Part shown: positions 1-30,544 of the stretch, in pieces
How positions within the stretch are numbered: the first letter of the stretch is position 1
Layout: every line of letters begins with the position of its first letter
NCBI GenBank assembly: GCA_009903855.1
Contig: WYEK01000145.1
Span: 1-52,147, forward strand
Source of the DNA: Thermocrinis sp.
Lineage (GTDB): Bacteria; Aquificota; Aquificia; Aquificales; Aquificaceae
Length of the DNA stretch: 52,147 bases
Direction: 5' to 3'
Position numbers and translations under genes: made by a program
Notes under the pieces: model-generated
What the model saw: only the letters and a program-made list of their open reading frames with translations
What the model was told of the DNA's origin: nothing
The model's database searches: none

Positions 1-165
1 CTTTACAGAGGGATAAGGGAGGCTAAGGAGTTAGAAAGGGAGGTAAGAGGTCCTTTGAAGAGGGTTTATGTGAAGTGGATAAGGGAAAGCTTTGAGTTTT
101 TAAGGGACAGGGACATTGAGTGGAGCTTCGGCTCCTCTTTTACAAGGGGATTTAAAGTCCCCTGA
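1..165 (+). CDS. C-terminal fragment of an unknown protein (truncated at window start)
   Basis: Frame 1 is open from base 1 to TGA at 163-165 (LYRGIREAKELEREVRGPLKRVYVKWIRESFEFLRDRDIEWSFGSSFTRGFKVP*). Hairpins GGAGC-TTCG-GCTCC (122-135) and AGGGGA/TCCCCT (145-163) lie inside it. Confidence 0.5.
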   Translation, partial: LYRGIREAKELEREVRGPLKRVYVKWIRESFEFLRDRDIEWSFGSSFTRGFKVP

Positions 166-170
166 GTTAG

Positions 171-197
171 GGCGGGCGTCCTGCCCGCATTTTTTTA
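171..197 (+). terminator. Rho-independent terminator
   Basis: GCGGGC-GTCCT-GCCCGC stem followed by ATTTTTTT. Confidence 0.75.
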
Positions 198-220
198 GTT
201 TTATGTGATTTTCATGTGTA

Positions 221-570
221 AATTGGTCAACCCCGCCCGCAATGGGCGGGGACCGAGGGGGTGGTAAAAAAGGGAGGGAAAGGGGGAGAAAAGGGAGTTA
301 AAAAACCACCCCCGCCCCAGTCTGGTCTCCTCCGGGGGACCAGGCTGGGGAGTTCAAAAAACTCCCCAGGGGAGGAGTGAGAGCATTCTCCTCCTTCCCT
401 GTGCCTGGGCGGCCAGACTCGTTCTGGCCGCAACCCCCACTGGGTCCACAGGGACAGGTTTGTCCCTACTCTGGGCCCAGTTTGCGACTGCCCTCTTTAT
501 GGGGGCAGTATTTACTGTCCAGCCAAGCTGGACAGTTGCGGGAGGCGGACGCCTTGCCTCCCGCTATGTA
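221..570 (+). other. Non-coding structured leader region of the hairpin-rich unit
   Basis: No convincing CDS. Consecutive stems: CCCCGCCC/GGGCGGGG (231-251), CTGGTC/GACCAG inside CCCCAG/CTGGGG (315-350), GGGGAGTT/AACTCCCC (347-367), GCGGCCAGA/TCTGGCCGC (409-431), CTGGGTCC/GGGCCCAG enclosing GGGACA/TGTCCC (440-480), ACTGTCCAGC/GCTGGACAGT (514-536), GCGGGAGGC/GCCTCCCGC (538-564). Confidence 0.65.
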
Positions 571-620
571 GGGGGTGAGAAAGACCCCCATAGCTAGTTC
601 ACCAATCCGTGATTTGTCAA

Positions 621-698
621 GCTTGCCTTGTCCTGTGGGTCATCCAAGGTAAGTGTGCCCATAGGGCACCGCCCACAGGGAAATCCCACAAGGCAAGC
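621..698 (+). ncRNA. Conserved leader RNA motif, copy 1 (upstream of gene at 712)
   Basis: P1 GCTTGCCTTGT/ACAAGGCAAGC, P2 CCTGTGGG/CCCACAGG, core TCATCCAAGGTAAG, P3 GTGCCC-ATA-GGGCAC, CG, immediately upstream of GGAGGT RBS. Confidence 0.75.
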
Positions 699-711
699 GA
701 GGAGGTAGGAA

Positions 712-1797
712 ATGCTAAAAACCCAACGCATCCACATTCCCACCCTCCCCTCCCCTCTCTGGGATGGGGATAGGGTGTTTGAGGCTCCGATGGAGCCTAT
801 GGTCTACCCTGTGAAGGGTAAGGACATTGCCCTGCCCAATCTCTTTGGCGGGACAGTTCTCGCCCGCAGGGTAGAGTATGTGGAGGTGAAGGCCTCAAAA
901 AGGCTTTCATCCTCCATCACTGTAGAAGTCTCCGACAGGGGGCTTCTTGACTGCATAGGACTTGTCTCAAGCGGGCAAGTCCTTGCAGTCATTGGCAGAG
1001 GGTCTAATCCCAAAAGGACCCTCGTGCTCTTGGAACCTCAGGCACTGAAAGACCCTGAGGTGTTTGAAGTCCTTTCAGACCTTCTGGAAAAGGAGGGTTT
1101 TGAGAGGGTAGCGGTGGCTGGCCACCTCAGACTGGGCGGAGAGCCCGAGTTTGAGGTGGTGGTCAGGGGCAGGGTAGTCCCTGCAGAAGACCTTTTCCCT
1201 CATGAGGAGGGCTTTGAGCCTCCCGTGAGGGCAGAGGGTTCTATCCTAAAGGTAGAACCCGATATGGCAGATACTCCTGAGGAGTATCTGGAGAACTTCT
1301 ATGCCCTCATCAAGGGCATAGACTTTGCCTTGTCCACAAAGGGCAAGGTGTATCCCATCTTGGGAACCATGTGCTTTGGTTCCCGAGATAGAGGAACCCG
1401 CAATGTCCTGAGGATTTTTGCCCAGGACATTGTTAGGGTTTTGGATGATTTTGTGGGCAGGGTGCTTCTGCCCACGTATGGAAGGGCCTGCTGGGAAGAA
1501 AAACTGGCAGGTCTTGGAAGCTATAGGCTGGCTTCCTATGGGCTGGCCTATAGAGTTCCCGCCAGCATCTATGCGGAGAGGGAAGTCCTCCGCATAGTTT
1601 ATAAGCTGGCGAAAAACCTGTTGGAGACCCTTCTCAAAGAGGGAGAGGTCTCCTACAGGTTAGCGGGAGGTCTTCCTCTAAGGGAGGAGTATATGCGGTT
1701 CCTCTCCGAGGAGGAGGTAGACTTTCTGCTTTCCTTCCCTGAAAGATACAGGGGAGGAGAAAAGCTTGTGCCTGTGGAGGAGGTCAGCCATGTTTGA
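712..1797 (+). CDS. Amidoligase-like protein (COOH-NH2 ligase / phiEco32 type), probably catalytically degenerate
   Basis: Aligns by eye with the proteins at 4027 and 5337 (GGxPEFEV, TPEEYLENF, ASIYAEREVLRIVYKLAKNLLETLLKEGEVSY), but the conserved GTDG and LGGHIHVG motifs are replaced by RAEG and LGTMCFGS. Confidence 0.65.
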   Translation: MLKTQRIHIPTLPSPLWDGDRVFEAPMEPMVYPVKGKDIALPNLFGGTVLARRVEYVEVKASKRLSSSITVEVSDRGLLDCIGLVSSGQVLAVIGRGSNPKRTLVLLEPQALKDPEVFEVLSDLLEKEGFERVAVAGHLRLGGEPEFEVVVRGRVVPAEDLFPHEEGFEPPVRAEGSILKVEPDMADTPEEYLENFYALIKGIDFALSTKGKVYPILGTMCFGSRDRGTRNVLRIFAQDIVRVLDDFVGRVLLPTYGRACWEEKLAGLGSYRLASYGLAYRVPASIYAEREVLRIVYKLAKNLLETLLKEGEVSYRLAGGLPLREEYMRFLSEEEVDFLLSFPERYRGGEKLVPVEEVSHV

Positions 1798-1868
1798 CCA
1801 ATTCCACAGAGTGCACAAGCCTTGGGGCTGTTTTACCAGCCCCTGAGTTGCCCCGCTTCTGGGGCGCT

Positions 1869-2432
1869 TTATATTCCAAGTTCTTTTTTAAGCCACTCAC
1901 TCTCTGGAAGGAGGTGTAAGGTGGTGTGGTAATATGCCATAAGCTTGGAGGTCAGGTCATCAGGAGGGAGGACAAATCTTGTAGAGTGGAGAAGTTTGAA
2001 CATATAAACCGTGTGGACTGTAGCACCAGTGAGGAGGTGTCTCTCAAGAGACTGAAAGTTTGCAGGGTATCTCTCCTTCATTATCACTCCCATCAAAAAC
2101 ATCTCAGACAGATATATGGGTTCCTCCTCTTTGGCATTGCTTAGGATTTCTCTCAGATAGCTTGCGGAAGTGTATCGCTTACCCTCTTGGTAGGCAAGTC
2201 TTCTCCAGCGAAGATACAAAAACTTAGCAAAAACGCCCCAATAACCCTTGTAGGGACCTTCCACCTTCTCCCTCCCTGTTATCTCCGCAAGCGCCATAAC
2301 AATTGCTGTGTAGTGAGGGAGTGGATTGTTTCTCCACTTCTCATGAAAAATCTCGTATGCCTTAGAAAAACCCACCTGCTTTATGAGGCTGATAGCGTAG
2401 TTGTCAATGTCCGCAAAACTTAAAACCCTCAT
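1869..2432 (-). CDS. Hypothetical protein
   Basis: 187 aa ORF. Upstream on the minus strand is GCTAAAATAACCTTATG (TAAAAT -10 close to the start). Lacks the dense hairpins of its neighbours. Confidence 0.6.
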   Translation of the reverse strand: MRVLSFADIDNYAISLIKQVGFSKAYEIFHEKWRNNPLPHYTAIVMALAEITGREKVEGPYKGYWGVFAKFLYLRWRRLAYQEGKRYTSASYLREILSNAKEEEPIYLSEMFLMGVIMKERYPANFQSLERHLLTGATVHTVYMFKLLHSTRFVLPPDDLTSKLMAYYHTTLHLLPESEWLKKELGI

Positions 2433-2463
2433 AAGGTTATTTTAGCTGGAAGAAATTCGTCAC

Positions 2464-2546
2464 GCCCGCGGGAAGGTGGTCATCCAAGGTAAGAGTGGGC
2501 AGAGCCCACCGCCACCTTCCTCCTGCCAAAGGGCAGGTTTGCGGGC
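2464..2546 (+). ncRNA. Conserved leader RNA motif, copy 2 (upstream of gene at 2559)
   Basis: P1 GCCCGC/GCGGGC, P2 GGAAGGTGG/CCACCTTCC, core TCATCCAAGGTAAG, P3 GTGGGC-AGA-GCCCAC, CG, extra hairpin CCTGCC-AAAG-GGCAGG. Confidence 0.75.
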
Positions 2547-2558
2547 AAGGAGGTAGTC

Positions 2559-3896
2559 ATGCCAGTAGGCATGTCTCTTTCACTCAAGCCTTTAAAAGTC
2601 TCCCCCTCCGTGGGGGAGGTCAGGTTGGCCCCTTACAGGGCCAACATCGGGCTGGCCTTTACAGGGCCAGACGGGGAGGATATCAGGCTCCTCCCTCAAC
2701 TCTACGGGCGGTTCCTTGCCCTGGGGGTCAATCAAGAACTCAGCCCCCAAGTTGCAAGGGCCGTCCTTGATTATCTGAGGGCGGATATGCCCCGGTTCTA
2801 CAGACTGAGGGCATTCCTCCTCAGGGAAGTCCCGGCTGGCAGTTCTGAAAAGACTGTCAGCATAGGGATAGTGAAGTTCAGCCCGGACAGGGTTGAACTT
2901 AGAAGTGGAGATAGCGGACTGATTTACACAGTCCGCATCCACGACGGCGGGCACGCCGAATGCACCTGTCCCGATTTCTTCTACAGAAGAAGAGGGACAG
3001 GAACATGGTGCAAGCACATAAAGTGCTTGCACCAGATGTTAAGGGAAGAATACTCTCCCAAGGAGAACTTCCCTTATTACTTGCCTCTGTGGGAGATGAA
3101 AGAGGTCTCTCCAGAGGCAAAGTTCATAGAGGCACTTGGTGGCCTCTATGAAGTTATGTCTCACCCTGTGGCGGAGAAGGAAAGCTATACCCGCCGCAGG
3201 GATGGGTATGAGGTCCCCGTTCTGGGAGTGGAGTTTGAAATCCCAGAGGGGACAGGGCCTGGGGCAACTCTTCTTACGAAGGTTGTCTCAGCCTTGAAAA
3301 ACCGCGGGCTGGTCCTCTCCTTTGAGAGGGACTCGTCCGTGGATGGCGGGGAAATAAAGCTAACCCCCTTCCCCGCTACCCTTGAGGAGTGCCTTGAAAA
3401 AGGGCAACTCCTCAAGGATTTGAGAGGCCTCGTAAGAGGTCTCTTTGAGAGTTCTAAACACTCAGGGCTACATGTTCATATAAACATGTGGCCCTTTAGA
3501 GAACGGTGGGAGGATGTCCCCGAACTCATCCTACCGTTTGCCCTCCTTCTGCAAAGGAGGTTTAATCTCGCCTCTATTTTTGGGCGGGGGATGAACCCTT
3601 ACGCCACAAAGATAGGGGCGACAGTCCCTCCACGGTATTGGTGGGTGAACTTTATGAGTTTGCCCTATACCGTGGAGGTTAGGCTGGGTTGCTCCAAGCA
3701 CGGCGACCCAGTCAAGATATTGCTCATGGGCCTGTTCTTCCAGAGGGCCTTTTGGGCAATAATGGAGGGAAGGTTTAAAGTGCCTTCCTTTGATGCAAGC
3801 GGAGAGGAGTTGATCTCCGCTTTCTCAAGTCTCCTCTCTGAGGAAGAGAGGAGATACATAGTGCCTCTCCTAAAGGAGGCACTGCTTAGTCCCTAA
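2559..3896 (+). CDS. SWIM zinc-finger / amidoligase fusion protein
   Basis: SWIM-type CxC...CxH (AECTCPDFFYRRRGTGTWCKHIKC), then amidoligase_2-like motifs (VLGVEFEIPEG, SSVDGGEIKLTPFP, SGLHVHINM). Confidence 0.7.
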   Translation: MPVGMSLSLKPLKVSPSVGEVRLAPYRANIGLAFTGPDGEDIRLLPQLYGRFLALGVNQELSPQVARAVLDYLRADMPRFYRLRAFLLREVPAGSSEKTVSIGIVKFSPDRVELRSGDSGLIYTVRIHDGGHAECTCPDFFYRRRGTGTWCKHIKCLHQMLREEYSPKENFPYYLPLWEMKEVSPEAKFIEALGGLYEVMSHPVAEKESYTRRRDGYEVPVLGVEFEIPEGTGPGATLLTKVVSALKNRGLVLSFERDSSVDGGEIKLTPFPATLEECLEKGQLLKDLRGLVRGLFESSKHSGLHVHINMWPFRERWEDVPELILPFALLLQRRFNLASIFGRGMNPYATKIGATVPPRYWWVNFMSLPYTVEVRLGCSKHGDPVKILLMGLFFQRAFWAIMEGRFKVPSFDASGEELISAFSSLLSEEERRYIVPLLKEALLSP

Positions 3897-4026
3897 TTAG
3901 GGACTGAGTGGAGGGGGCACTTTGCCCCCGCCTTTTGTTAGCCCCTGCGTGGATGGGCCTTACTCGGGGGATTACCCCCAGCCCATCCATCCCTGAAGAG
4001 GGGACAGCAGGGGAAGGAGGTAAGCC

Positions 4027-5196
4027 GTGAGGAAAACCCTAAAGCTGCATCACTCTCACATGAGGGTGGAGGGCCTCTACTGTTTAGAGGCCTCCATTTC
4101 AGGAAAGTCCCTCGGAATGAGGGACTTTCAGTGTTTTGGGGACCGCCACATTGTGGAGGTCCTCAGTGATGAGGTCTTTATAAAGGACCTCTCGGGATAC
4201 CTGCCCTTGGAGGAGTATGGGCAGGAGGGTGATTGGGTAAGGTTCAGTGCCTATGAGGGCCCTGAAAACCCTCTGGAACTGGACCTGCCCTTTGTGGCGG
4301 ACGTCCCCATGAGGGGCGTCGTGCTTTTGGAGGGATGCGATACAGGACGTCGCATCCTTGTAGTCCTTGAAGAGGTCTGGGAAGACCCAGACCAATTCAA
4401 GGAAGGTTCTCCCTTTAGGGAGCTTCTTCTGAGGGAGGGTTTCGCCTTCTTAGAACCTCCCTCTTTGAAGGATGCCACCATCTTGCTTGGGGGAGACCCC
4501 GAGTTTGAGGTGGTGGACATCCTCAGCGGGGAGATAATCCCCGCAAGGGATGTAGACCTCTTTGAGGAAGGAGGAGAAAGTCCTTCCTCTGTGGTAGGCA
4601 CCGATGGGTGCTCCGATATAGCGGAGATACGCCCACGGGCCTGCGAAACTCCCGAAGAATATGTTCGGGAGGTTAAATCTATCCTTGAGTTCATCAAGAA
4701 AAAGAACTCTTGGATAGACCTGTCCGTAGAGGGGAATACCTATCCCCTCGGCGGGCACATTCACGTGGGCGCCAAAGACGCCTACGTGAGGGAGACCCTC
4801 CAAGCTAATGTGAGGGTCTTCATTGAGGCTCTTGACGATTTCATTGGGAAGCTGTTGCTTCCCACGTCAGGGTCCGCAAGGGGCAGGTATGCGGTTTTAT
4901 CCGCATACGAAGAGAAGCCCCACGGCTGGGAATACAGAACACCCCCAGCCAGCATCTACGGAGACCTTGAGGTTCTCCGTATAACCTACAAGCTTGTAAA
5001 AGGGCTTGTAGAGAAGCTTCTTAGGGAGGGGGAACTCTCCTACTATGTGGGGAAAGACGGCATCCCTCCCTTTGAAGAATACCTTGCTTTCCTCACAGAA
5101 GAGGAGGCAAGGTATTTTCTGGAATTTCCCAGAAGATGGGAAGAAGGGGATGTCTGCCCCCTTCTTCTGGGCACCAGTGGGCAGTTTGCCCACTGA
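4027..5196 (+). CDS. Amidoligase (COOH-NH2 ligase-type, phiEco32-like)
   Basis: GTG start after AGGAGG; GGDPEFEVVD, GTDGCSDIAEIRP, LGGHIHVGAKD, PTSGSARGRYAVL, GWEYRTPPASIYGDLEVLRITYKL. Confidence 0.7.
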   Translation: MRKTLKLHHSHMRVEGLYCLEASISGKSLGMRDFQCFGDRHIVEVLSDEVFIKDLSGYLPLEEYGQEGDWVRFSAYEGPENPLELDLPFVADVPMRGVVLLEGCDTGRRILVVLEEVWEDPDQFKEGSPFRELLLREGFAFLEPPSLKDATILLGGDPEFEVVDILSGEIIPARDVDLFEEGGESPSSVVGTDGCSDIAEIRPRACETPEEYVREVKSILEFIKKKNSWIDLSVEGNTYPLGGHIHVGAKDAYVRETLQANVRVFIEALDDFIGKLLLPTSGSARGRYAVLSAYEEKPHGWEYRTPPASIYGDLEVLRITYKLVKGLVEKLLREGELSYYVGKDGIPPFEEYLAFLTEEEARYFLEFPRRWEEGDVCPLLLGTSGQFAH

Positions 5197-5232
5197 GTAA
5201 GGGCCCTTGTGGCCCTTTTACTTGTAAGCCCT

Positions 5233-5320
5233 GGTCAAGTCAAGGGAGGGGATGGTCATCCACGGTAAGACCGTCCAAAGGACGGCGCCATCCCTCTCCC
5301 GCTCTCAATAGGGCTTGACC
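5233..5320 (+). ncRNA. Conserved leader RNA motif, copy 3 (upstream of gene at 5337)
   Basis: P1 GGTCAAG/CTTGACC, P2 GGGAGGGGATGG/CCATCCCTCTCCC (one bulge), core TCATCCACGGTAAG, P3 CCGTCC-AAA-GGACGG, CG. Confidence 0.75.
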
Positions 5321-5336
5321 TTAGGGTGGAGGCAAC

Positions 5337-6809
5337 ATGAAGCGGGTGATAGTTAGGGCTTTGAGAATCCCTTCAGGAGTCCCTTATAAGGGACTCCTTT
5401 TTGAGGCCCTCTACCTTGTGGAGGGCGAAGTGGACCTTCTTGGCTACGACTGTCCCCACGGGACAGTCTTCGTGGCCAAGGAGGGCACACGCTTCCTCAA
5501 CGTGGGAGGCGTGGAAGGAGAGCTTGACCTTGGATGGGTCAAGCTCAAAGGGACTGAGATCCCAAACTGGGAGGAGTATCCCCTCCCAGTCTATGAGGGC
5601 GATCTTGAGGACATCAAGATCGTCCTGATGAGGACACGGACCACCCTAAACAGGGTGTGTATCGTGTCCGCAAGGGCGCTGGAGGAGAATGACGAGGTAA
5701 GAAATTACCTCGTCTGGGAGAGGTGGGCCAAGTTTTTGATAACTTGGCCTGCCCCAGGGGAAGAATTCCTCACACTCGGGGGAGATCCCGAGTTTGAGGT
5801 AATTTACGATGGGGAGGTCGTCCCAGCAAGGGACCTCTCCATTTTCAGGGATGGGGACCTTGATTACCCCATCGGAACGGACGGAGCATCTCACACCGCA
5901 GAGCTCCGTCCAGATCCCGCATACTCCCCAGAGGAGTATGTGGAGAATTTCCTTGCCCTTGTAGAGAGGGTCAAGGAAGAAGGTGTCCTCCTTTCTGTGC
6001 AGGGGGACACATATGCCTTGGGAGGCCACATTCACGTAGGGTCTTCCAATGACCTTGTCGTCCAAGTCCTTAAGGACGAAGTGAAAAGCTTCGTTGAGGT
6101 CTTGGACGATTTCGTGGGGAGGGTCTTACTCCCCACGTCGGGAAGGGCACGGGGCGGTTATGCACGCCTCGGAGCCTACGAATTAAAAAGCTACGGGTGG
6201 GAGTATAGAACCCCACCCGCAAGTTTTTATGCGGACCTTGAGATGGTCCGCATTACCTACAAGTTAGTCAAGGGTCTCGTGGAGACCCTCCTCAGAGAGG
6301 GGGAACTCTCCTACGAGACCCTTGAGGACGGGCGGGCAAAGCCCGAGGAGTATCTCCGTTTCCTCACAAAAGAGGAAGCGGAATATTTCCTCGGGTTCCC
6401 TGAGAGATGGGCACGGGGGGAAATCATCCCCTTTGTGCTTGTAAAGGGTGTCCCACAAGTCATCTTCACTTTCAGAGACGAGTGGGACAGCGACAAAAAG
6501 AGGGTGTTCAAAAACGCCCTCAAGAACTTGCCCGTAGCCAAGCCTATAAGGCTTGTTCTCTACGGACTGGCTGAGCGTAGGGGGGGCTACTTTGCCCTTC
6601 CTACTGCACCAGAAGATTGGGTTCTGAAGGAGGAATTTCCCAAAGAACCCTTCGTAGATGGGGCCCTTCCAGAAATCTGGGTGGGTATCCCATACAGGTT
6701 CAGGAGGTTGGAGGTAATACCTCCAGACCTTCTGAAGGAGTTCGTCAGCTGGGTAGAGGAATATCTCGCCCAGCTGGGACTTGTTGCGGCCGCAGCGGCC
6801 GCTGAGTAA
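5337..6809 (+). CDS. Amidoligase (COOH-NH2 ligase-type) with C-terminal extension
   Basis: LGGDPEFEVIYDGEVVPARD, GTDGASHTAELRPDP, LGGHIHVGSS, GWEYRTPPASFYADLEMVRITYKL; extra ~110 aa C-terminal region ending AAAAAAE. Confidence 0.7.
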   Translation: MKRVIVRALRIPSGVPYKGLLFEALYLVEGEVDLLGYDCPHGTVFVAKEGTRFLNVGGVEGELDLGWVKLKGTEIPNWEEYPLPVYEGDLEDIKIVLMRTRTTLNRVCIVSARALEENDEVRNYLVWERWAKFLITWPAPGEEFLTLGGDPEFEVIYDGEVVPARDLSIFRDGDLDYPIGTDGASHTAELRPDPAYSPEEYVENFLALVERVKEEGVLLSVQGDTYALGGHIHVGSSNDLVVQVLKDEVKSFVEVLDDFVGRVLLPTSGRARGGYARLGAYELKSYGWEYRTPPASFYADLEMVRITYKLVKGLVETLLREGELSYETLEDGRAKPEEYLRFLTKEEAEYFLGFPERWARGEIIPFVLVKGVPQVIFTFRDEWDSDKKRVFKNALKNLPVAKPIRLVLYGLAERRGGYFALPTAPEDWVLKEEFPKEPFVDGALPEIWVGIPYRFRRLEVIPPDLLKEFVSWVEEYLAQLGLVAAAAAAE

Positions 6810-6830
6810 GGGGCTCCGCCCCGCTTTTGT

Positions 6831-6911
6831 CAGTCCCGCAGGGAGAAGGTCATCCACGGTAAGTGCGGCCAAAGGCCGACGCCTTCTCCATCCTGTCAAA
6901 GGGCAGGACTG
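6831..6911 (+). ncRNA. Conserved leader RNA motif, copy 4 (upstream of gene at 6930)
   Basis: P1 CAGTCC/GGACTG, P2 GGAGAAGG/CCTTCTCC, core TCATCCACGGTAAG, P3 CGGCC-AAA-GGCCG, CG; downstream CCTGTC/GGCAGG hairpin. Confidence 0.75.
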
Positions 6912-6929
6912 CGGAGACAGGAGGTGCCT

Positions 6930-7964
6930 ATGTGCGTCATCGCAGTCAAACCATCTAACGCCGTCCTCACTAAAGAGGACGCCATGCTCATGTGGGAGGC
7001 TAACTCCCACGGGGCAGGTTTTTGCGTGTGGGATGAAAAGTCCCGCACGTGGCAAGCACAAAAGGGCTTCATGTCCTTTGAGGAGCTTTGGAGGGCTATG
7101 GAGCCCTTCACACGGAAGGGTGTCATTTTAGTGGCACACTTCCGTATTGTCTCAAGGGGCAGGGTCTGTCCAGAGCAGACCCATCCCTTTGAGATTGAGG
7201 TGGAAGAGGGAACTGCATACCTCTTCCACAACGGGACCCTTGACATCAGAATAACTCAAGGGTCCTCGGACACTTATGAGTTGGCTTACCAATTGAGCCA
7301 GCTCAGACTCAAAAAGAGGCAGCTTAAGCTGCTTCTAAAGGAGGGTGGCCTCCTTGAAGGGGTCAGGGCACACTCTCGGTTTGCGGTGTGCCTTCCTGAC
7401 GAGGAGGAGCCCTTCCTCGTGGGCCAGTGGGAGGAGGTGAGAGGCCTAAAGGTCTCCAACTCCTACTGGAACTTTGGAAGGACCTACACGGGTCTTTCCA
7501 TAGGTAGGAGGTCTTCCTACTCCTACTATCCTTCCCTCTACTGGGAGGACGAGTGGGAGGAAAGGGAAGCCTCCTTCTGCGGATGCGGTCTTCAAGACCG
7601 CATCATCGTAGAGGTAGGCAAACTCCGCTTTAAGGTAGAGGACGGAGTGGCCTACCCATACTTTGGGAATGAGTCTCCCATGACGGAGGGAGAAATCATT
7701 CCCAGAGAGGACAGCCTGTTCCTTTTGCTGGAGGACGAGCTGTCCTTTGAAATCAGGCCCAGCTACAAATACATGCCAAGCTGGGCTGTAGACCCAGACG
7801 GAGTTGTCTACCGTCTGGACAATGACAGGCTGGTTGCCTACCCTGTGGGCGGAAAACGCCCCAAGTATGTGGCAATCGGCCTGAGGGACAAGGACGTGCT
7901 ATACGTCCTTGATAACACCGCCCTTGCGGTTCCCTACGAAGTTAGGGAGGAAGAGAGATGGTGA
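6930..7964 (+). CDS. Class II glutamine amidotransferase-like (Ntn hydrolase) protein
   Basis: ATG at 6930 gives MCVIAVKPS with Cys2 as nucleophile; NSHGAGFCVWDE, VILVAHFRIVSRGRVCPEQTHPFEI, YLFHNGTL. The track start at 6924 is GTG and would bury the Cys. Confidence 0.75.
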   Translation: MCVIAVKPSNAVLTKEDAMLMWEANSHGAGFCVWDEKSRTWQAQKGFMSFEELWRAMEPFTRKGVILVAHFRIVSRGRVCPEQTHPFEIEVEEGTAYLFHNGTLDIRITQGSSDTYELAYQLSQLRLKKRQLKLLLKEGGLLEGVRAHSRFAVCLPDEEEPFLVGQWEEVRGLKVSNSYWNFGRTYTGLSIGRRSSYSYYPSLYWEDEWEEREASFCGCGLQDRIIVEVGKLRFKVEDGVAYPYFGNESPMTEGEIIPREDSLFLLLEDELSFEIRPSYKYMPSWAVDPDGVVYRLDNDRLVAYPVGGKRPKYVAIGLRDKDVLYVLDNTALAVPYEVREEERW

Positions 7965-8359
7965 GGACCGCAGGGTGGGAAGAAGTAAGGGGGCTTGTTT
8001 ACGCCTCCTTTGAAGAGCAGGGGGTAGGTGGAAGACCTTCCCCTGCTGATGGCTACCTCGTCTACGAGGAAGATGGCGAGGTAGTAGCATGCATAGGGTG
8101 GCGAAGGCTTGGCTGGCTTTATACCGAGATTTGCCACCTGTATGTGATGCCCTCCTATCGTGGAAGAGGCATCGCAAAAATCCTTGTGCGGGAGGCTGTA
8201 AAAGAGCTTCCCGCTAAGGTCTTCTTGGCAACCGTTGTGGAGTGGAACACTCCCTCCCAACGGGTGCTAAGCCACTGCGGCTTTCAGGCCGTGGGAAAGT
8301 GTCCTTCCCCCAGAACGGGAAGGACGCTGGTAGTCTTCACGTATGTGAAGACTGAGTAG
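7958..8359 (+). CDS. GNAT family N-acetyltransferase
   Basis: VVACIGWRRLGWLYTEICHLYVMPSYRGRGIAKILVREAVKE (RGxGI acetyl-CoA motif), overlapping the preceding gene. Confidence 0.8.
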   Translation: MVRTAGWEEVRGLVYASFEEQGVGGRPSPADGYLVYEEDGEVVACIGWRRLGWLYTEICHLYVMPSYRGRGIAKILVREAVKELPAKVFLATVVEWNTPSQRVLSHCGFQAVGKCPSPRTGRTLVVFTYVKTE

Positions 8360-8380
8360 CGGGCTCTTCGCCCGCATTTT
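8359..8380 (+). terminator. Rho-independent terminator closing the amidoligase unit
   Basis: GCGGGC-TCTTC-GCCCGC followed by ATTTTCTTT; near copy of the terminator at 171-197. Confidence 0.7.
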
Positions 8381-8403
8381 CTTTAATTAGTTAACTGAGA
8401 AAA

Positions 8404-8445
8404 GGTTAACTAAGTTTTGGACTTGTAATGGATACTTAGTTAACC
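8404..8445. promoter_or_regulatory. 42-bp bipartite operator GGTTAACTAAGT-N18-ACTTAGTTAACC
   Basis: Perfect 12-bp arms with 18-nt spacer; TAAAAT -10-like box at 8456 follows. Confidence 0.8.
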
Positions 8446-8486: not shown

Positions 8487-9257
8487 ATGAAGAAGAGTTT
8501 GGCGGTGTTTTTGGTTTTGGGTGCTGTTGCCCAAGCGGGTGATACCAAGACGGAGGAGAGGCAGATACCAGTGGTGAAGTGTTCTGAGCCTGTGTATTCG
8601 GTGATGGTAATGGAGTTTGATTGCAAGGCATCTGCTTGCCAACAGCCAAATAATCCCAAACTCCTTCCCATATTTGAGGTTCTTACCACAGTAAACGGAG
8701 TGCAAGGGCTGGGCAAGGGAGTATCTACCATGCTAACGAATGCCCTGAAGGCCACCAATTGCTTTAGGATAGTGGATTTGGAGCAATACGAGAAGATGAA
8801 AAAACTGCTTTCCGCAACAGGGCAACAGGTTCAACCTCCCAAAGTGGATTACATGATCAGCGGTTCTATAACTGCTTTGGAGCTTGAACGGAGTGGCGGA
8901 CCTCTCGGTGGTGGAGTTTTCCCACTTTTGGGTGCCATAAGCATCAAAAAGGACAAGGCGGAGCTGGCGGTGGATGTGAATGTGATAAAGCCTGAGACGT
9001 TAGAGGTAGCCTATTCTAAGTCTTTTTCTGCAAACTCAGAGAAGACCTCTTGGAGCCTATTTGGTGCGGGTGCTGGTGGCGGAGGCTTTGGCGGAGCTGG
9101 TTGGAGTATAAGCAAAAACCTTTCCCTTGATATGGTAGCAAGGGATGTGGTGGTTCAGGTGGCGAATGCTTTAGCGGAGACCCTCGCCAAAGACAAAATA
9201 GTAGAAAGACCGAAGCCGCCCAAGGAGGAGGAGAAAGAAGAAAAGGAAAATGAATGA
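8487..9257 (+). CDS. CsgG-like secreted protein
   Basis: Signal peptide MKKSLAVFLVLGAVAQAG; VNGVQGLGKGVSTMLTNALKATNCFRIVDLEQYEKMKK and VDYMISGSITALE resemble the CsgG family. Confidence 0.55.
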   Translation: MKKSLAVFLVLGAVAQAGDTKTEERQIPVVKCSEPVYSVMVMEFDCKASACQQPNNPKLLPIFEVLTTVNGVQGLGKGVSTMLTNALKATNCFRIVDLEQYEKMKKLLSATGQQVQPPKVDYMISGSITALELERSGGPLGGGVFPLLGAISIKKDKAELAVDVNVIKPETLEVAYSKSFSANSEKTSWSLFGAGAGGGGFGGAGWSISKNLSLDMVARDVVVQVANALAETLAKDKIVERPKPPKEEEKEEKENE

Positions 9258-10843
9258 AAGTAAAGGAAGCTATCTTTGTCCCTACCAATCTGTATGGCAA
9301 AGAAATAAACCCTCTTCCGTGGCAGATAGAGGCAGGGCAACATGACAACCTCATCATCGTCGCCCCCACAGGTGCGGGCAAAAGCGTAGCAAGTTATATC
9401 TGGGCTGGGCAAAAACCTGCTAAGAGAATAATCTTCACTGCACCCACAAAGTCCCTTTCAAACGAAAGGTGGCTGGAACTCAAAAGGGCTGGGCTTGATG
9501 TGGGGCTTTTAACGGGAGATGTGAGACTAAACGAAAAGGCAAAGGTTCTTTGTATGACGCAGGAGATATACACCTCGGAGTTTGCAAAGCTTCCCGACCA
9601 GAGGGTAATCATAGATGAGGTCCATTACATGTTTCAAGACCCAGACAGATCCCGAGCATACGCTTTAGGCATCAAAAGAACCCATCCCAGTTCTTACCTT
9701 TTACTTCTTTCTGCCACCATCACCGACAAGGGCATAGAGATTTTGAAACTGCTAAGTGGAAGAGAGATGCATGTTATCAAGGTCAAGAGCCGTCCTGTGA
9801 AGATAGAGTTTGTGCATACTCCTTTGCAACTTGGGAAATCGCTTTTGGACTATCTCCCAGCCATATTCTTTGTCTTTAGCAGGTCTTTGGCGGTAGAGAT
9901 TGTGCAGAGGTTGAAAAAACTGTTTAGGTCTTTAAAGGCGGTGCCCACAAAGGAGGAGTGGGAGAGGGCAAAGGAGATTGCCAAAAGGCTGAACATAACA
10001 AACACATTCCTTTTATCCGCAGCAAAGCATGGAGTTGGGCTTTACTTTGGAGACATGAGATACAAGGAGAGGGTCTTTGTGGAGATGCTTTTCAGAAGCC
10101 AGCTTATAAAGGCGGTGGTGTCTTCAGATGCGTTGGCGGTGGGAGTGAATTTCCCAGCCAAAAGCGTTGTGTTTTGTCAGCTAACAAAGGCAGGAAGACC
10201 TCTTACCAAGCGGGAGTTTTTGCAGATGGCGGGAAGGGCAGGGCGTCCTGGGCTATGGGACATAGGCTATGTGGGATATCTGGCGGGAAAAGGAATGAAG
10301 GATGCGTTCAATAGACTAATTGCCAGCCCACTGGAGGAGGAGGTTCTCTACATCCAGCCAAACCTAAAGGGAGTGCTAAGGGAGTTGGAGTATGAGGAAC
10401 TCTGGGACGACAGTGCGGTGGAGGCAGTCTGTGAAGAGGAGGCGGAGCTGGTAGAAGAGCTGTCGCTTAAAACCCTCAAAAAGGGAGTAGTGAAAGAAAA
10501 GCTTATGGACGATGTGCGGATGCTTAGGTATTTTCTTATCCGCACAAAAGATAGCCAGAAGGTTTATGAGGTTTTGCGGGACATCTACTTTGAGGAGTTT
10601 TCCATGCCAGTAAATTTTGCCCTTGCCCAAAAGCTTGCAAAAAGAAATCAGATAGATGCCTTGCAGGCCTTTGGAGAACTCAAGGAGAAGGGAACTCAAA
10701 GGGAGAAGCTTCAGTTTTTGAAGTTCTTCATGCTTATTCGTGAGAAGTATGAGGTTGTAAACCTTGTGGAGTTTATAGACAGAATACGCAAAGAGGATGA
10801 GTTTGTGCTAAATCCAGAACTGCTTTTGTCTGTTGAAAACTAA
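9254..10843 (+). CDS. SF2 DEAD/DEAH-box (Ski2/Hel308-like) helicase
   Basis: Walker A IIVAPTGAGKS, VIIDEVHYMF, LLLLSATI, SSDALAVGVNFPAKSVV, QMAGRAGRPG. Confidence 0.85.
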   Translation: MKVKEAIFVPTNLYGKEINPLPWQIEAGQHDNLIIVAPTGAGKSVASYIWAGQKPAKRIIFTAPTKSLSNERWLELKRAGLDVGLLTGDVRLNEKAKVLCMTQEIYTSEFAKLPDQRVIIDEVHYMFQDPDRSRAYALGIKRTHPSSYLLLLSATITDKGIEILKLLSGREMHVIKVKSRPVKIEFVHTPLQLGKSLLDYLPAIFFVFSRSLAVEIVQRLKKLFRSLKAVPTKEEWERAKEIAKRLNITNTFLLSAAKHGVGLYFGDMRYKERVFVEMLFRSQLIKAVVSSDALAVGVNFPAKSVVFCQLTKAGRPLTKREFLQMAGRAGRPGLWDIGYVGYLAGKGMKDAFNRLIASPLEEEVLYIQPNLKGVLRELEYEELWDDSAVEAVCEEEAELVEELSLKTLKKGVVKEKLMDDVRMLRYFLIRTKDSQKVYEVLRDIYFEEFSMPVNFALAQKLAKRNQIDALQAFGELKEKGTQREKLQFLKFFMLIREKYEVVNLVEFIDRIRKEDEFVLNPELLLSVEN

Positions 10844-10853
10844 AATAAACTCT

Positions 10854-11843
10854 ATGCTTGCGGAGGAGATTGAAAAACTTTTAAAGTTTTTGCGGGAAAA
10901 CCCAAGAGAATACATGAAAAAGATTGCCAAAGAGAAAAATCCGCCATTCAATCCAAAGTATGAAAAGTATTTCGCAAAAAAGGAGGAGATAGACCCTACA
11001 AAGATTGAGTTTGAACTTGAAACGGTTAGCGACAAAGTCTCTTCTGAAATATTCAGAAGCGGGTTGAGTTTTTGGAGTGTTCCCATTTCTTCAGGTTATG
11101 GGAGGCGTATGAGATTTATTGTGTGGGACAAAACCCATGGCAAGGTTTTTGGCATCTTTGGGCTTTGCGACCCACTCATTGGGCTGAAGGTAAGGGATGA
11201 CTACATTGGCTGGAGTAAAAAGCAGAGGGAGGAGAGGCTTTATAACATGATGAGTGCCTATGTGCTTGGTGCAGTCCCTCCCTACAACGAACTCTTTGGT
11301 GCCAAGCTGGTGGCGTTGGCGGTGGGCTGCAAGGAGGTATGTCAGGCTTTTGAGGAAAAATACAAGGGCAAGAAAACCATAATAAGAGGTAGGACACCAC
11401 TTGCCAAGCTTGTGGCGGTGGATACGATGGCCTTTTTTGGCAAAAGTCTAATTTACGAGGGGCTTCCTGAGTGGCAATTTTTGGGCTATACAAAAGGACT
11501 GACGCATATACACCTAAACGGGCTTTGGGAGAGATGTTTGGAGTTGGCAAAGGAGATGAACGCAAGGAGTTTAGAGAGAAACAAGTTTGGGCATGGGCCT
11601 AACTGGAAGTTTAGGGTTTTAAACGAAGTTTTCTCTCGTCTTGGGATATCGGAGGAGTATTATGACACGGGGATAAAAAAAGGCTATTACTTTAGACCGC
11701 TAACGCTGGAGTGGAGGGAGTTTTTGAAGGGAGAGACAGACCAGCTTACCTATGTGAATAAGTCCTTTGAGGAGTATGTGGAATTTTGGAAAAATAAATA
11801 TTTGAGAAGGGGGTTAAAAAAATGGAATGGGAAGGCTTTTTAG
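10854..11843 (+). CDS. DUF4338 / DruA-like protein
   Basis: VFGIFGLCDPLIGLKVRDDYIGWSKKQREERLYNMMSAYVLGAVPPYNELFGAKLVALAV resembles the DUF4338 signature. ACTAAAATAAACTCTATG supports a start at 10854 rather than 10833. Confidence 0.65.
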   Translation: MLAEEIEKLLKFLRENPREYMKKIAKEKNPPFNPKYEKYFAKKEEIDPTKIEFELETVSDKVSSEIFRSGLSFWSVPISSGYGRRMRFIVWDKTHGKVFGIFGLCDPLIGLKVRDDYIGWSKKQREERLYNMMSAYVLGAVPPYNELFGAKLVALAVGCKEVCQAFEEKYKGKKTIIRGRTPLAKLVAVDTMAFFGKSLIYEGLPEWQFLGYTKGLTHIHLNGLWERCLELAKEMNARSLERNKFGHGPNWKFRVLNEVFSRLGISEEYYDTGIKKGYYFRPLTLEWREFLKGETDQLTYVNKSFEEYVEFWKNKYLRRGLKKWNGKAF

Positions 11844-12805
11844 AGGGCTATAAGAGGGTGGAGGACTTTAACATTCAAAGGGAGAAGCTTTTGGAGGAAC
11901 TTAGAAGAAGGAAAAAGGAGTTGAGGGAGGAGGTCCAGAGGATAACTCCCATAAGGAAGGCAAAGGAGGGAAGTTATCTTTCCATAGCGGCTGTGGATTC
12001 GGCTTTTGATGAGTTGTTTGGAGATGATTGGGGGAGGAGACTGTATGCGGTTTGTGTGGCGGGTGCGGCCTTTGTGCCCAGAGAAAACTCTCTTGAAAAG
12101 AGGGAAAAGGAACCTGAGCTTACTTTTGATGAGTGTGTTTTGAATTACGATGAGGAGGATGATTATTCAAGAGTTTTGAAGGGGCTTGCTATTGCAAAGG
12201 AGATAGAGAGGGCAAGGGAGTGGTTTTCTGAAATGGATTTAGTGGTATTAGACGGGTCGGCTAAAAGCGTGGTGATATCTATCAATCAAGGGATGACTGT
12301 AAAGGACCTTGAAAGGAGCAAGATGGGAAGGGAACTCAAGGCTATGTATAAAGATACTCTGCGGTCTTTGTATAACCTTCTTAACTGGGGCAAGCTTCTT
12401 TTTATTCCCAAGCGGTCTGGAGAGATGTTATTGGCGGACAAGATTACCTCTTCACCGCTTAACAACGACTTTGCTTTGCTTTCTGTGATTTTAGAAGAAG
12501 GGGAGTATGTAGCTTTAAGGGTTCCAATTTGGCAATACAATCTTCCGAAGGAGGGAGTTGAAGAACTTCTGCCAAAGCTTTTTGACCTTTTGAACCATTT
12601 GAGGGTGATATATTTCAAGGCTCCATCTGGGAGGATTATAAAAGTGGAAACCCGTCAGCCCTCACCTGTATCAGCTATTGAAGACTTTTTCGTTTTGGAG
12701 GGGGAAAATATGCTTACCTACTATGCGGACAGGTCTGCAAAGTTTCATTTAACAAACTTAAAAGATTATGCAAAGAAAGTCAACCCTTGGAGGTATAGAC
12801 TATGA
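11822..12805 (+). CDS. nurA: NurA-domain nuclease
   Basis: YLSIAAVDSAFDE ... LVVLDGSAKS acidic motifs, C-terminal SAKFHLTNLKDYAKKVNPWRY; adjacent to a HerA-type ATPase. Confidence 0.6.
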   Translation: MEWEGFLEGYKRVEDFNIQREKLLEELRRRKKELREEVQRITPIRKAKEGSYLSIAAVDSAFDELFGDDWGRRLYAVCVAGAAFVPRENSLEKREKEPELTFDECVLNYDEEDDYSRVLKGLAIAKEIERAREWFSEMDLVVLDGSAKSVVISINQGMTVKDLERSKMGRELKAMYKDTLRSLYNLLNWGKLLFIPKRSGEMLLADKITSSPLNNDFALLSVILEEGEYVALRVPIWQYNLPKEGVEELLPKLFDLLNHLRVIYFKAPSGRIIKVETRQPSPVSAIEDFFVLEGENMLTYYADRSAKFHLTNLKDYAKKVNPWRYRL

Positions 12806-14508
12806 AGGGAATAGTTTTTGGAGAAATCCGTCCTTTTCGTGTCCAAGCACTTTTAAAGGAGTATCAGGAAGGAGAGGCAGTTTTAGGCAGGCTTGTGCAA
12901 ATCAAAAACGGAGACAAGCTAATTATTGGCAGGGTTGTGGATTTTCACAGACTTTCTGACCTTCTCAAGGATTACGACCAAGCCAAACTCTTTGACAAGA
13001 GAAAAGAGTCTGCAGTAGCAAGAGAACTTCTAAGCTTCCGTGAGGGAATTGTGTTGGAAATAGACCTGATTACTGCCTTAAGTGGAAATACAAGGGTGCC
13101 CTTGAACTTCCCTGTGAAGCTACTTTCTGAAGTGGAATTTCTTGAAGAATTTCCCTTTGAACGCAATGCCCACACGGGCTATTTAGGACACTTCTGGGGC
13201 ACCAACATAAAGGCACCTCTTATCTTGCAGGACTTTCAAACGCTAAAAGAGGCCTATCACTTTTTTGTGGCTGGGCAAACGGGCTCTGGAAAATCTACCC
13301 TTGTTCAAATGCTTTTAGCTCTTTACAACAAGCTAAACCCGAGAATGAACTTTTTGATTTTAGACACCGTTGGGGAATTTACCGCCAGCTTTAAGGGAGA
13401 GAGGGAACTGTTTTTGCATCTAAAGGATGTGTGGTGGCGTGAAGGGTGGGAGGTATACACACCCCCTGAAAATCTGGCTTTGGAGGGATGGGAACTTTTC
13501 AAAGAACTCTGTTTGGATTATGAGATTATGAAGCACTTAGACGTTCCAGTCAAAAGCGTGGATAATGCAAAAGGCGGTGTAGATTATCTTGTGATAAAAC
13601 TCATTGAGGAAGCAAGAAAACAGGAGGAGGGAACGCTGGCTAACCTCTTTCAGCCTAAGCGCAAAGAGCAAATTACAACAGGAAACCTAACCGACGAAAT
13701 AGTTAAGAAAGTGGTTTCTAACTTGGAAAACGATGATGAATTTGTGAAAAGCATATACAAAAGGGATGACAAGGCCAGAGAGAGGGTAAAAGCTGCCCTT
13801 AAAACTCCAGACAAAATTAGCAAATTCCTAAAAGCCCTGCAAGAAATCGTAAAGCTTTTCACTGTGGCAGGCACGAACAAAAAGACAATCAGAGAAGTTG
13901 TTGGTGGCTTTTTAGAGTCTGCTTTGGAAGGGTCTTTAGGCAAGTGTGTAGTTTTGGACTTTACCCTCTACAAAGCGGGCGGGAACCTCCTGGGCTTGCG
14001 GTCTAAGTATGTAAGGGAAACCTTGAGATGGCTTTACAATGCAGGGATAGACCTCTATCGCAAAAGCGGAAATCTAAACCTCAACACCCTTGTGGTTTTA
14101 GAAGAAGCCCACAACTATGTTCCAAAGAGGATTGAGGAAAAGGAAACCAGCACCCTTTCCGATGAGATAGTCAAATACTTTATTGAAACCAGAAAGTTCG
14201 GCATTGGCTGGATGTGTATCACCACCCGCCCATCAAACGTAAGGAGAGAAGTCTTTGACCACTCAAGGGTCAAGTTCATTGGCATGGGTCTCACAAGCGG
14301 ACCTGATGCAGAACTGCTAAAGGAAGCCTTCGGTCCAGAGTTTCTAAACACCTACAGACTGTTCCCAGACCCTTCAGACCCACTATCTCCCAAAAAGGAA
14401 GTCTGCTTTGCCATCTCAGGCCCCATTACCATCCTCTCCAGACAAAGCCCAGAGTTTATAACCGTCTTTAACAGCAAGGAGGACTTCCTAAAAGCAAACT
14501 GGGAATGA
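12802..14508 (+). CDS. herA: HerA/DUF87-type ATPase
   Basis: Walker A FFVAGQTGSGKSTL, NFLILDTVGEF, TLVVLEEAHNYVP, WMCITTRPSNVRREVFDHSRVKFIG; N-terminal HAS-barrel-like region. Confidence 0.8.
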   Translation: MKGIVFGEIRPFRVQALLKEYQEGEAVLGRLVQIKNGDKLIIGRVVDFHRLSDLLKDYDQAKLFDKRKESAVARELLSFREGIVLEIDLITALSGNTRVPLNFPVKLLSEVEFLEEFPFERNAHTGYLGHFWGTNIKAPLILQDFQTLKEAYHFFVAGQTGSGKSTLVQMLLALYNKLNPRMNFLILDTVGEFTASFKGERELFLHLKDVWWREGWEVYTPPENLALEGWELFKELCLDYEIMKHLDVPVKSVDNAKGGVDYLVIKLIEEARKQEEGTLANLFQPKRKEQITTGNLTDEIVKKVVSNLENDDEFVKSIYKRDDKARERVKAALKTPDKISKFLKALQEIVKLFTVAGTNKKTIREVVGGFLESALEGSLGKCVVLDFTLYKAGGNLLGLRSKYVRETLRWLYNAGIDLYRKSGNLNLNTLVVLEEAHNYVPKRIEEKETSTLSDEIVKYFIETRKFGIGWMCITTRPSNVRREVFDHSRVKFIGMGLTSGPDAELLKEAFGPEFLNTYRLFPDPSDPLSPKKEVCFAISGPITILSRQSPEFITVFNSKEDFLKANWE

Positions 14509-15296
14509 TAAAAAGCATCCTCCGATACCCGGGCGGAAAGTCAAAGGTAGCCCAAAAGCTTATCTCCCTCATCCCTCCCAACATCAAAGAATTCAGAGAA
14601 CCCATGGTGGGAGGAGGGTCCGTGGCTTTAGCAGTCAAGCAGACCCTTCCACATGTGCGTGTGTGGATAAACGATTTAAGCTACGACCTTGTATGCTTTT
14701 GGAAAACCTTGCGGGACAATCCAGAGGAACTAATCAGGGAACTCAAACGGATAAAATCTGTGTATAAAGATGGGAAGAAACTTTTTGAGGACTTCTCTTC
14801 CCAAGAGGGAGGAGATGAGTTTGAAAGGGCAGTAAGGTTCTTTGTGTTAAACAGGATTAGCTTTTCTGGAACTACCTACTCGGGAGGCTTCTCCCAGCAG
14901 GCTTTTGAGAGAACGTTTACAGAAAGCAGTATTGAACGGCTAAGGAAGGCATCAGAAATAATCAAGGACTTCAAAATAACGCATGGAGATTATGAAAGTC
15001 TTTTGTTTGAAAAGGGAGAGGGCGTATTTATCTTTTTAGACCCGCCCTACTACAGCACCGCCAACTCAAGGCTTTATGGAAAAAGAGGAGACCTCCACAC
15101 CAGCTTTGACCATCAAAGGTTTGCAAAGAATATGCAAAAATGCCCACATCTTTGGCTTATAACCTACGACGACTGCAAAGAAGTGAGAAGGCTTTTTAGC
15201 TTTGCAAACATCTACAGCTGGGAACTTCAATACGGAATGACCGCAAAGAAGGGTAAGGAAATCTTGATTTCCAACTTCCCACTCAAAGGCGGTTAA
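14505..15296 (+). CDS. dam: DNA adenine methyltransferase (D12 class, Dam-like)
   Basis: ILRYPGGKSKVAQKL, EFREPMVGGGSVAL, IFLDPPYYS. Confidence 0.85.
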   Translation: MIKSILRYPGGKSKVAQKLISLIPPNIKEFREPMVGGGSVALAVKQTLPHVRVWINDLSYDLVCFWKTLRDNPEELIRELKRIKSVYKDGKKLFEDFSSQEGGDEFERAVRFFVLNRISFSGTTYSGGFSQQAFERTFTESSIERLRKASEIIKDFKITHGDYESLLFEKGEGVFIFLDPPYYSTANSRLYGKRGDLHTSFDHQRFAKNMQKCPHLWLITYDDCKEVRRLFSFANIYSWELQYGMTAKKGKEILISNFPLKGG

Positions 15297-29857: not shown

Positions 29858-29924
29858 CCCTCTGGCTAAATGAGAATTATTCTCATTACCCATTTTTGAA
29901 CTCAGTTCAACACTTTTCGCTAAA
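29858..29924. repeat. 67-bp direct repeat, copy 2
   Basis: Identical to 27401-27467. Confidence 0.9.
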
Positions 29925-29982
29925 GGAAATTTCACTTTTCACTATCACTTTTCGCTAAAAGAAAGCCCCACTTTTCGCTAAA
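29911..29982. repeat. CACTTTTCGCTAAA repeats
   Basis: Exact copies at 29911, 29946 and 29969 (also 27454), with one degenerate copy near 29933. Confidence 0.8.
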
Positions 29983-30049
29983 GGAAAATGGGAAAATGCC
30001 CTCCTGAAATCCTTGTCTTTCAAGCACTTGAGAGGGGTAGGGTGGCGGT

Positions 30050-30112
30050 GGTTTAATGGTTTTTGTCCGGGGTTTAATGGTTTTTGTCCGCTGGTTTAAT
30101 GGTTTTTGTCCG
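30050..30112. repeat. Three tandem iterons GGTTTAATGGTTTTTGTCCG
   Basis: Perfect 20-bp copies at 30050, 30071 and 30093 (21-22 bp period). Confidence 0.85.
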
Positions 30113-30347
30113 ACCCCCCGACCCACTGGAACGCCATCAAACCCTTGCGGGTCAAGGCTTTGACGCAGTTGGCACGATTTTTGCTTAATTTTTTAGAGTA
30201 TATATTCTTTTAGAGATAGTGAATTTACTTCGTAAATTCACGCAATTTTTTCTTACGAAAAAATTGCCGGTAATAGAAAGAGATTTTTTCTTTTTCGTTC
30301 TCCTCTAAAAGAAAAGAGAAAAAGAAAACAAAAATCTCCTGCGGGCG

Positions 30348-30543
30348 GGTTAACTATGCCTGCGGGCTGGGATGGAAACTTAGTTAACCACATGGCGGGT
30401 TAACCAACTGCTATGCAAAAGGAAGGGACTTAGTTAACCATCTAAAGCGGGTTAACTAACATTGGCTAAAATCATAGGCACTTAGTTAACTGACTAAAGA
30501 GGGTTAACTAAGTCTTTTTCATTTTTGGTGGAGTTAGTTAACC
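30348..30543. promoter_or_regulatory. Cluster of four 42-bp bipartite operators
   Basis: Copies at 30348-30389, 30398-30439, 30450-30491 and 30502-30543, each with an 18-nt spacer and period ~50 bp. Confidence 0.8.
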
Positions 30544-30544
30544 C

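Follow-up and report, generated by a model that had tools for sequence, protein, structure and literature searches.

In RNA viruses, coding RNA can be pervasively folded for kilobases on end, a property called genome-scale ordered RNA structure (GORS) (PMC7642675, PMC3950689, PMC3695492), and strong folding has been built into engineered "superfolder" mRNAs by picking synonymous codons that leave the protein the same (PMC7457604). The amidoligase operon at 122-8376 of the window analysed here, a 52,147 bp stretch that is one entire contig of the 1.1-Mb draft genome (G000) of a hot-spring Thermocrinis sp., can be set beside both. Like GORS, its structure is pervasive, diverse in sequence, local and synonymously encoded over kilobases; its folding energy lies below that of codon-preserving shuffles across kilobases; and its stems are mostly different in a relative. 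Unlike GORS, it is carried on DNA rather than on a replicating RNA genome, encodes no replicase, has its structure optimised on the sense strand only and confined to one operon. Phage MS2 RNA, our yardstick, is less strongly structured than the operon, which is optimised on the sense strand only. The operon is a natural counterpart of the superfolder mRNAs in that a strong fold is reached by synonymous codon choice, but it arose naturally, its hairpins are local, and its average unpaired probability is only modestly lower. No other DNA-borne bacterial operon known to us is structured this strongly across its transcripts, on the sense strand only and through codon choice (the literature search covered one open-access library).

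Described families also meet at this locus. Four copies of RF02953, the DUF1874 leader RNA of Rfam, score above the gathering score, each before a gene and running into its Shine-Dalgarno sequence; both location and covariation agree with the family. The Rfam description, however, covers the leader only, neither structured genes nor the gene-end element found here, and the genes are amidoligases and their partners rather than DUF1874; the library searched yielded no paper that describes the DUF1874 motif. Two operon proteins lie above the curated cut-off of the phiEco32-type COOH-NH2 ligase family (PF14395) and one below it, but none has a close relative in IMG/VR or in phage or plasmid collections, and to our knowledge nothing links this enzyme family to mRNA structure. 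The leader family, the enzyme family, pervasive structure in viral coding RNA and engineered structured mRNAs are all known. An initial annotation of the window had suggested that this could be an undescribed structured-mRNA system; the transcript-wide, sense-strand structure described below, which lies outside known bacterial mRNA behaviour, supports a structured RNA. As modelled, the sense RNA is very probably what selection acts on, chiefly by way of synonymous codons, to yield many short, local, thermostable hairpins. We see an even chance that the operon represents a previously undescribed, DNA-borne class of cassettes whose mRNAs are hardened throughout by codon-encoded thermostable hairpins and framed by an RF02953 leader and a TGAGT double-hairpin end, that is, a natural superfolder-mRNA system in which selection maintains the density of structure rather than any one hairpin.

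The main evidence is folding energy, expressed as sense-strand z-scores (z) against shuffles that preserve protein, codon usage and dinucleotides exactly. The operon encodes two PF14395 COOH-NH2 ligases (gathering score 25 bits), a degenerate paralogue, a 445-aa protein, an amidotransferase-like protein and a GNAT acetyltransferase. The open reading frames (ORFs), with their z and their counterparts on contig L147 of another Thermocrinis genome (G006), are as follows:

712-1797, + strand: degenerate amidoligase paralogue, hairpin-dense (PF14395 20.6 bits, under the cut-off; z -14.6)
1789-1846, + strand: remnant ORF of 18 codons (136 aa in G006, L147 644-1054), end hairpins kept
1869-2432, - strand: 187-aa antisense gene, unstructured on both strands, no family found (76% identical in G006, L147 1076-1639, - strand)
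2559-3896, + strand: 445-aa protein with a possible SWIM zinc finger (weak match), hairpin-dense (z -15.8)
4027-5196, + strand: COOH-NH2 ligase type 2, a predicted amidoligase, hairpin-dense (PF14395 44.5 bits, E=1.4e-11; z -11.6)
5337-6809, + strand: COOH-NH2 ligase type 2, a predicted amidoligase, hairpin-dense (PF14395 39.8 bits, E=4e-10; z -18.9)
6924-7964, + strand: class-II glutamine amidotransferase-like protein, hairpin-dense (weak PF13230 match; z -11.2)
7958-8359, + strand: GNAT acetyltransferase, overlapping the preceding ORF (z -6.0)

The antisense gene gave z +0.9, other tested genes of the window gave -2.0 to +2.3, and 60 genes from other contigs of G000 and G006 averaged -0.26 (sd 1.09, minimum -2.69); in the same run as this sample the five long operon genes reached -8.8 to -15.0. 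Control genes overall (tra genes, other window genes and the 60 sampled) fell between -2.7 and +2.5. The initial annotation had offered to give up its observation if the folding energy proved no lower than in synonymous shuffles or equal to that of the tra genes; it is lower than both.

Hairpin counts agree with the energies. With Watson-Crick stems and loops of 3-14 nt, the operon span 121-8380 holds 19.1, 14.9 and 10.7 hairpins per kb with at least 6, 7 and 8 pairs, respectively, versus 6.3, 2.6 and 0.96 in the remaining window. Stems of at least 8 bp are about 11-fold denser in the operon than elsewhere in the window, and its mRNA is predicted to form well over a hundred short stable hairpins. 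The dense hairpins claimed across 122-8376 are confirmed by these counts and by z of -6.0 to -18.9, and the individual hairpins that had been named are present: those at 2600-2618, 2624-2645, 2652-2670, 2874-2900 and 4103-4129 were listed as such, 3007-3033 appeared as 3006-3034, and the rest could be read in the sequence. A 100-nt scan against dinucleotide shuffles places the beginning of the array within the first 250 bases, with a collapse at about 1900-2400, a return at about 2450 and a stop at about 8380, as had been described by eye for the antisense gene and for the region after 8376; beyond the operon a single scanned 100-nt window passes z -4, at 30201. There is structure at the proposed start of 122 and none before it, but 122-163 forms the 3' end of an upstream ORF that is truncated (1-163, with no relative in 60 other genomes searched). 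Perfect stems of at least 7 bp cover 13-24% of most operon kilobases; in 517 kb of other G000 contigs no 1-kb window exceeds 7.4%, and no comparable region was found there.

The mismatches within stems bear on which molecule is selected. In cruciform DNA, G.T and A.C mismatches in stems are equally likely. The ratio of G.U to A.C is 78:11 in the operon (51:6 from 2440 on) versus 139:152 in the remaining window, and 28:24 in MS2. The sense strand is also lower in energy than its complement, with z more extreme on the sense strand in five of the six operon genes, and MS2 in the same test has similar z on both strands. The G.U excess, the sense-biased z and the spared antisense gene therefore point to selection on the sense RNA. 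A DNA-level or mutational origin, whether by selection on cruciforms or single-stranded DNA in conjugation or by template switching that perfects quasi-palindromes, would suit a conjugative-plasmid-like contig and stems that are short-looped and often perfect. We consider it extremely improbable: the G.U asymmetry is absent elsewhere, the antisense gene inside the array is spared, the tra genes are unstructured, and amino-acid identity to G006 is not lower in stems (it is equal or slightly higher inside them than outside). The strand asymmetry and the spared antisense gene largely refute a cruciform or template-switch origin in particular. A remnant of an RNA replicon or RNA phage was likewise rejected: MS2 needs both strands functional and its wobbles are symmetric, whereas those of the operon are asymmetric, and no replicase is encoded in it.

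The excess of perfect stems over synonymous shuffles declines with loop size, from 9.1-fold at 3-4 nt to 6.4-fold at 5-6 nt, 4.5-fold at 7-9 nt, 2-3-fold at 10-20 nt and about 1-fold beyond 45 nt; an excess confined to short loops implies local folding, such as arises while the RNA is still being synthesised. The mean hairpin length is 24 nt and the median gap between hairpins 15 nt, and periodicity in their spacing was not found (p 0.95): the array that had been called back-to-back is dense but unevenly spaced. Calculated ensemble energies run from -48.6 to -49.8 kcal/100 nt among the five long genes; the first transcript's non-coding leader has -52.2, and control genes have -23 to -29. The evenness of the operon values, that of the non-coding leader included, indicates that the target is the transcript and not translation alone. 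On the sense strand the energy gain over shuffles is 29-37% in the operon versus 21-27% in MS2 genes. At a calculated 80 C, the fraction of bases paired with P>0.9 is 0.26-0.32 in the operon, 0.07-0.08 in synonymous shuffles and 0.01-0.02 in control genes, so that codon choice roughly quadruples the stably paired bases. By calculation the hairpins hold firmly at 37 C and melt in part at 75-85 C, which would fit translation control by a gene-long RNA thermometer, with hairpins that slow or temperature-gate ribosomes. That explanation is improbable, however, as the 5' non-coding leader, the intergenic regions and the gene ends are equally structured, start regions are more open than gene bodies, and there is no 5' gradient.

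The operon is better described as a chain of cassettes, each with an RF02953 leader, an ORF and a gene-end element. The gene-end element, absent from the initial annotation, is a hairpin of at least 7 bp followed by TGAGT, a GC hairpin and a T tract. It recurs at the gene ends at 163, 1844, 3905, 5194, 6803 and 8353 of the window and at 1052 and 3245 of L147, and a scan of 734 kb on both strands gave one extra match, at 14816, that looks like chance. TGAGT is fixed relative to the hairpins while the stop codon shifts frame, and the element is therefore conserved as RNA or DNA, not as protein. A leader of the RF02953 type (covariance model, gathering score 42 bits) precedes each + strand gene of the operon except that for the GNAT protein, which overlaps the ORF before it. 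The non-coding parts are, in order:

122-193, + strand: gene-end element of the truncated upstream ORF that ends at 163 (hairpins 122-135 and 145-163, TGAGT, GC hairpin 170-188, T7)
230-615, + strand: non-coding leader of the first transcript, structured (z of about -4 to -5 against dinucleotide shuffles in most of 251-600), with hairpins at 231-251, 315-350, 367-401, 409-431, 487-509, 514-536 and 538-564
616-706, + strand: DUF1874 leader RNA, copy 1 (70.7 bits)
1824-1872, + strand: gene-end element
2459-2554, + strand: DUF1874 leader RNA, copy 2 (80.6 bits)
3887-3936, + strand: gene-end element
3937-4021, + strand: divergent DUF1874-like leader RNA (41.8 bits, just below the gathering score)
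5174-5224, + strand: gene-end element
5225-5333, + strand: DUF1874 leader RNA, copy 4 (60.5 bits)
6786-6828, + strand: gene-end element
6829-6925, + strand: DUF1874 leader RNA, copy 5 (73.1 bits)
8333-8382, + strand: last gene-end element and terminator, where the structured region stops

The four strong leader copies conserve a core, TCATCCAMGGTAAG, within a branched structure that ends at the Shine-Dalgarno sequence; the base of the outer stem adjoins that sequence, and most copies end GGAGG-like a few bases before the start codon. Changes on both sides that keep pairing occur in 16 of 24 predicted pairs. Two further copies, at 75.1 and 66.8 bits, are in G006, which beyond this genome is the only one of 136 Aquificota genomes to have the core, and searches of IMG/VR with leader-core patterns gave no convincing structural context among the matches listed (the contexts of some loci were scored). 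A link to AcrIII-1/DUF1874 genes was rejected, as the RF02953 leader is missing from 19 PF08960 loci in Aquificota. Many Aquificota PF08960 matches (L251-L263, L268) fall within open frames some 560-610 codons long, which may be ring-nuclease fusions, and none of these has a leader. Elsewhere in G000, at 11688-11790 of L146 (contig C137), there is a DUF1874-like RNA of 37.1 bits with a long closing GC stem and then T8. It might be an independent small RNA; the contig also carries DnaN, topoisomerase, sigma-70-like and helix-turn-helix-bearing genes.

The terminator-like ends after almost every gene, together with the unstructured antisense gene that splits the array, mean that the operon is probably not one mRNA. 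What had been called a whole-mRNA array is upheld as transcript-wide, sense-strand structure and replaced, as a single message, by cassettes with an Rfam-family leader and a gene-end element. The put RNAs of phage HK022 are antiterminators, structured RNAs ahead of genes and terminators. The operon leaders, too, are structured RNAs in such positions; the put system lacks hairpin-dense coding regions. A role at the level of transcription would have each leader act on RNA polymerase as a put-type processive antiterminator, allowing read-through of the terminator-like gene ends, while nascent hairpins prevent backtracking, R-loops and Rho loading. There is one leader per cassette, in a position that suggests such a role: the T tract of one gene end leads straight into the next leader (3936/3937, 5222/5225, 6828/6829) with no evident promoter between. 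Pairing is also strictly local, as expected of co-transcriptional folding, and the non-coding leader is structured to the same degree as the ORFs. On the other hand, known antiterminator RNAs work without hairpins throughout genes, and internal hairpins trailed by T-rich stretches, which recur in the operon, would by themselves raise pausing. We regard this role as unlikely, but it and a protein-bound or packaged RNA are the main rivals of the function favoured below.

Among 136 Aquificota genomes, the amidoligase profile matched only in this genome and in G006, giving two loci in all, of which that in G006 is a fragment. Its 4.2-kb contig (L147) carries the 712 orthologue, the 136-aa ORF, the antisense gene and, after these, the orthologues of 5337 and 2559; the order differs from that in the window, and leaders and gene ends are present. 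Its four + strand genes fold below expectation (z -6.8, -4.0, -3.7 and -2.8; in a repeat run -4.9, -4.0, -3.3 and -3.0, where 20 other G006 genes reached at most -2.7). In the 2559 and 5337 genes, individually conserved stems were sought and rejected: pairs changed on both sides re-pair overall no more than slid controls. In the 712 orthologue, which is better conserved, some stems are kept by compensatory changes, such as 1453-1475 and 1569-1597, the latter CTATGCGGAG/CTCCGCATAG in the window and CTACACGGAG/CTTCGTGTAG in G006, but the totals of compensated stems do not stand out. The check for related operons that had been suggested thus finds density kept, at lower strength, in this sole relative and individual stems mostly not kept. 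With stems mostly different and structure retained, selection seems to hold hairpin density, not particular hairpins.

Hairpins that differ in sequence and turn over, as under density-only selection, would also be expected if a dedicated protein bound or packaged the RNA, or if the RNA travelled with the plasmid, with hairpins as non-specific binding or compaction units; the density, above that of MS2 RNA in the same test (gain 29-37% versus 19-27%), points the same way. This is a distinctly unlikely explanation, however: the operon has no gene for a capsid, a replicase or a recognisable RNA-binding partner, hairpin spacing is irregular, and this is the only structured operon of the plasmid. 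The initial annotation had suggested a packaged RNA or one that is itself the functional product; both keep some low probability, but the ORFs encode conserved proteins and have leaders, Shine-Dalgarno sequences and start regions that are comparatively open.

The function that we tentatively favour, at somewhat less than even probability on these models, is hardening of the transcript so that the message persists in a hot cell. Each cassette mRNA would have a folded 5' end (the leader), a body in which hairpins form during synthesis and a double hairpin to finish the 3' end. Near a presumed 80 C, the hairpins would slow single-strand-specific endonucleases, exonucleases and thermal hydrolysis, and the message would persist, with start regions left open enough for translation. 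Of the roles suggested in the initial annotation, nuclease resistance appears the most plausible. Several points weigh against hardening. All of the RNA structure is predicted, from nearest-neighbour energies extrapolated to 80 C and with a growth temperature assumed from the genus. The unpaired fraction at 80 C falls modestly, to about 0.42-0.47 versus 0.53-0.56 in shuffles, and unpaired runs of at least 10 nt are not rarer (2.78 per kb versus 2.29), which implies limited protection from hydrolysis or from endonucleases that need only a short open site. Structure is only weak in two G006 orthologues (z -3.7 and -2.8), and there is no known reason why just this operon should need structure.

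Since unpaired runs do not fall below those of shuffles, selection appears to be for strong discrete hairpins and not for hiding every base. This bears on escape from RNA-targeting immunity, another role suggested at the outset, in which target sites of type III CRISPR systems would be hidden in stems. Type III-type RAMP genes do occur in this genome and in four of six other genomes of the genus that were examined. Yet none of 41 spacers (from sampled contigs, with incomplete arrays) matches the window, accessible runs of at least 10 nt are not reduced, the tra genes do without such structure, and DUF1874 (PF08960) genes of Aquificota were found without the RF02953 leader. Escape is very improbable, and nothing positive was found in its favour.

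The operon is a natural experiment on the amount of structure that an mRNA can bear while still being translated near 80 C, and on whether structure buys lifetime. It gives the orphan DUF1874 RNA family its first strong context, and selection on whole-mRNA structure in bacteria becomes directly testable by recoding.

The amidoligases and the 445-aa protein have no relatives in IMG/VR, INPHARED or PLSDB, and searches of the same collections gave only distant, partial phage matches for the amidotransferase-like protein. Weak PDB matches of the A1 profile to proteasome subunits were not believed. The 187-aa antisense protein, whose gene sits between two cassettes, is predicted to be all-helical; its predicted structure is of low confidence (predicted local distance difference test, pLDDT, 51).

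Most of the window encodes an F-type conjugation apparatus (TraG, H, K, C, E, F, N, U, V, TrbC, TrbI and TraD), with DnaB helicase, DruA and a Dam-type methylase, and the contig is conjugative-plasmid-like; its TraU has no match in G006. G+C per kb is 52-56% over 1-8000 versus 41-49% from 9001 on. Adjoining the operon, at 9254-15296, a helicase, DruA (PF14236), a HerA-like ATPase and the Dam-type methylase lie side by side, a possible defence cluster. Iteron-like repeats (CACTTTTCGCTAAA, GGTTTAATGGTTTTTGTCCG) and inverted repeats of GGTTAACTAAGT occur at 29900-30560, the GGTTAACTAAGT inverted repeats being present also at 8388-8445, between the operon terminator and a CsgG-like gene; these repeats suggest a plasmid origin region and a shared regulator.

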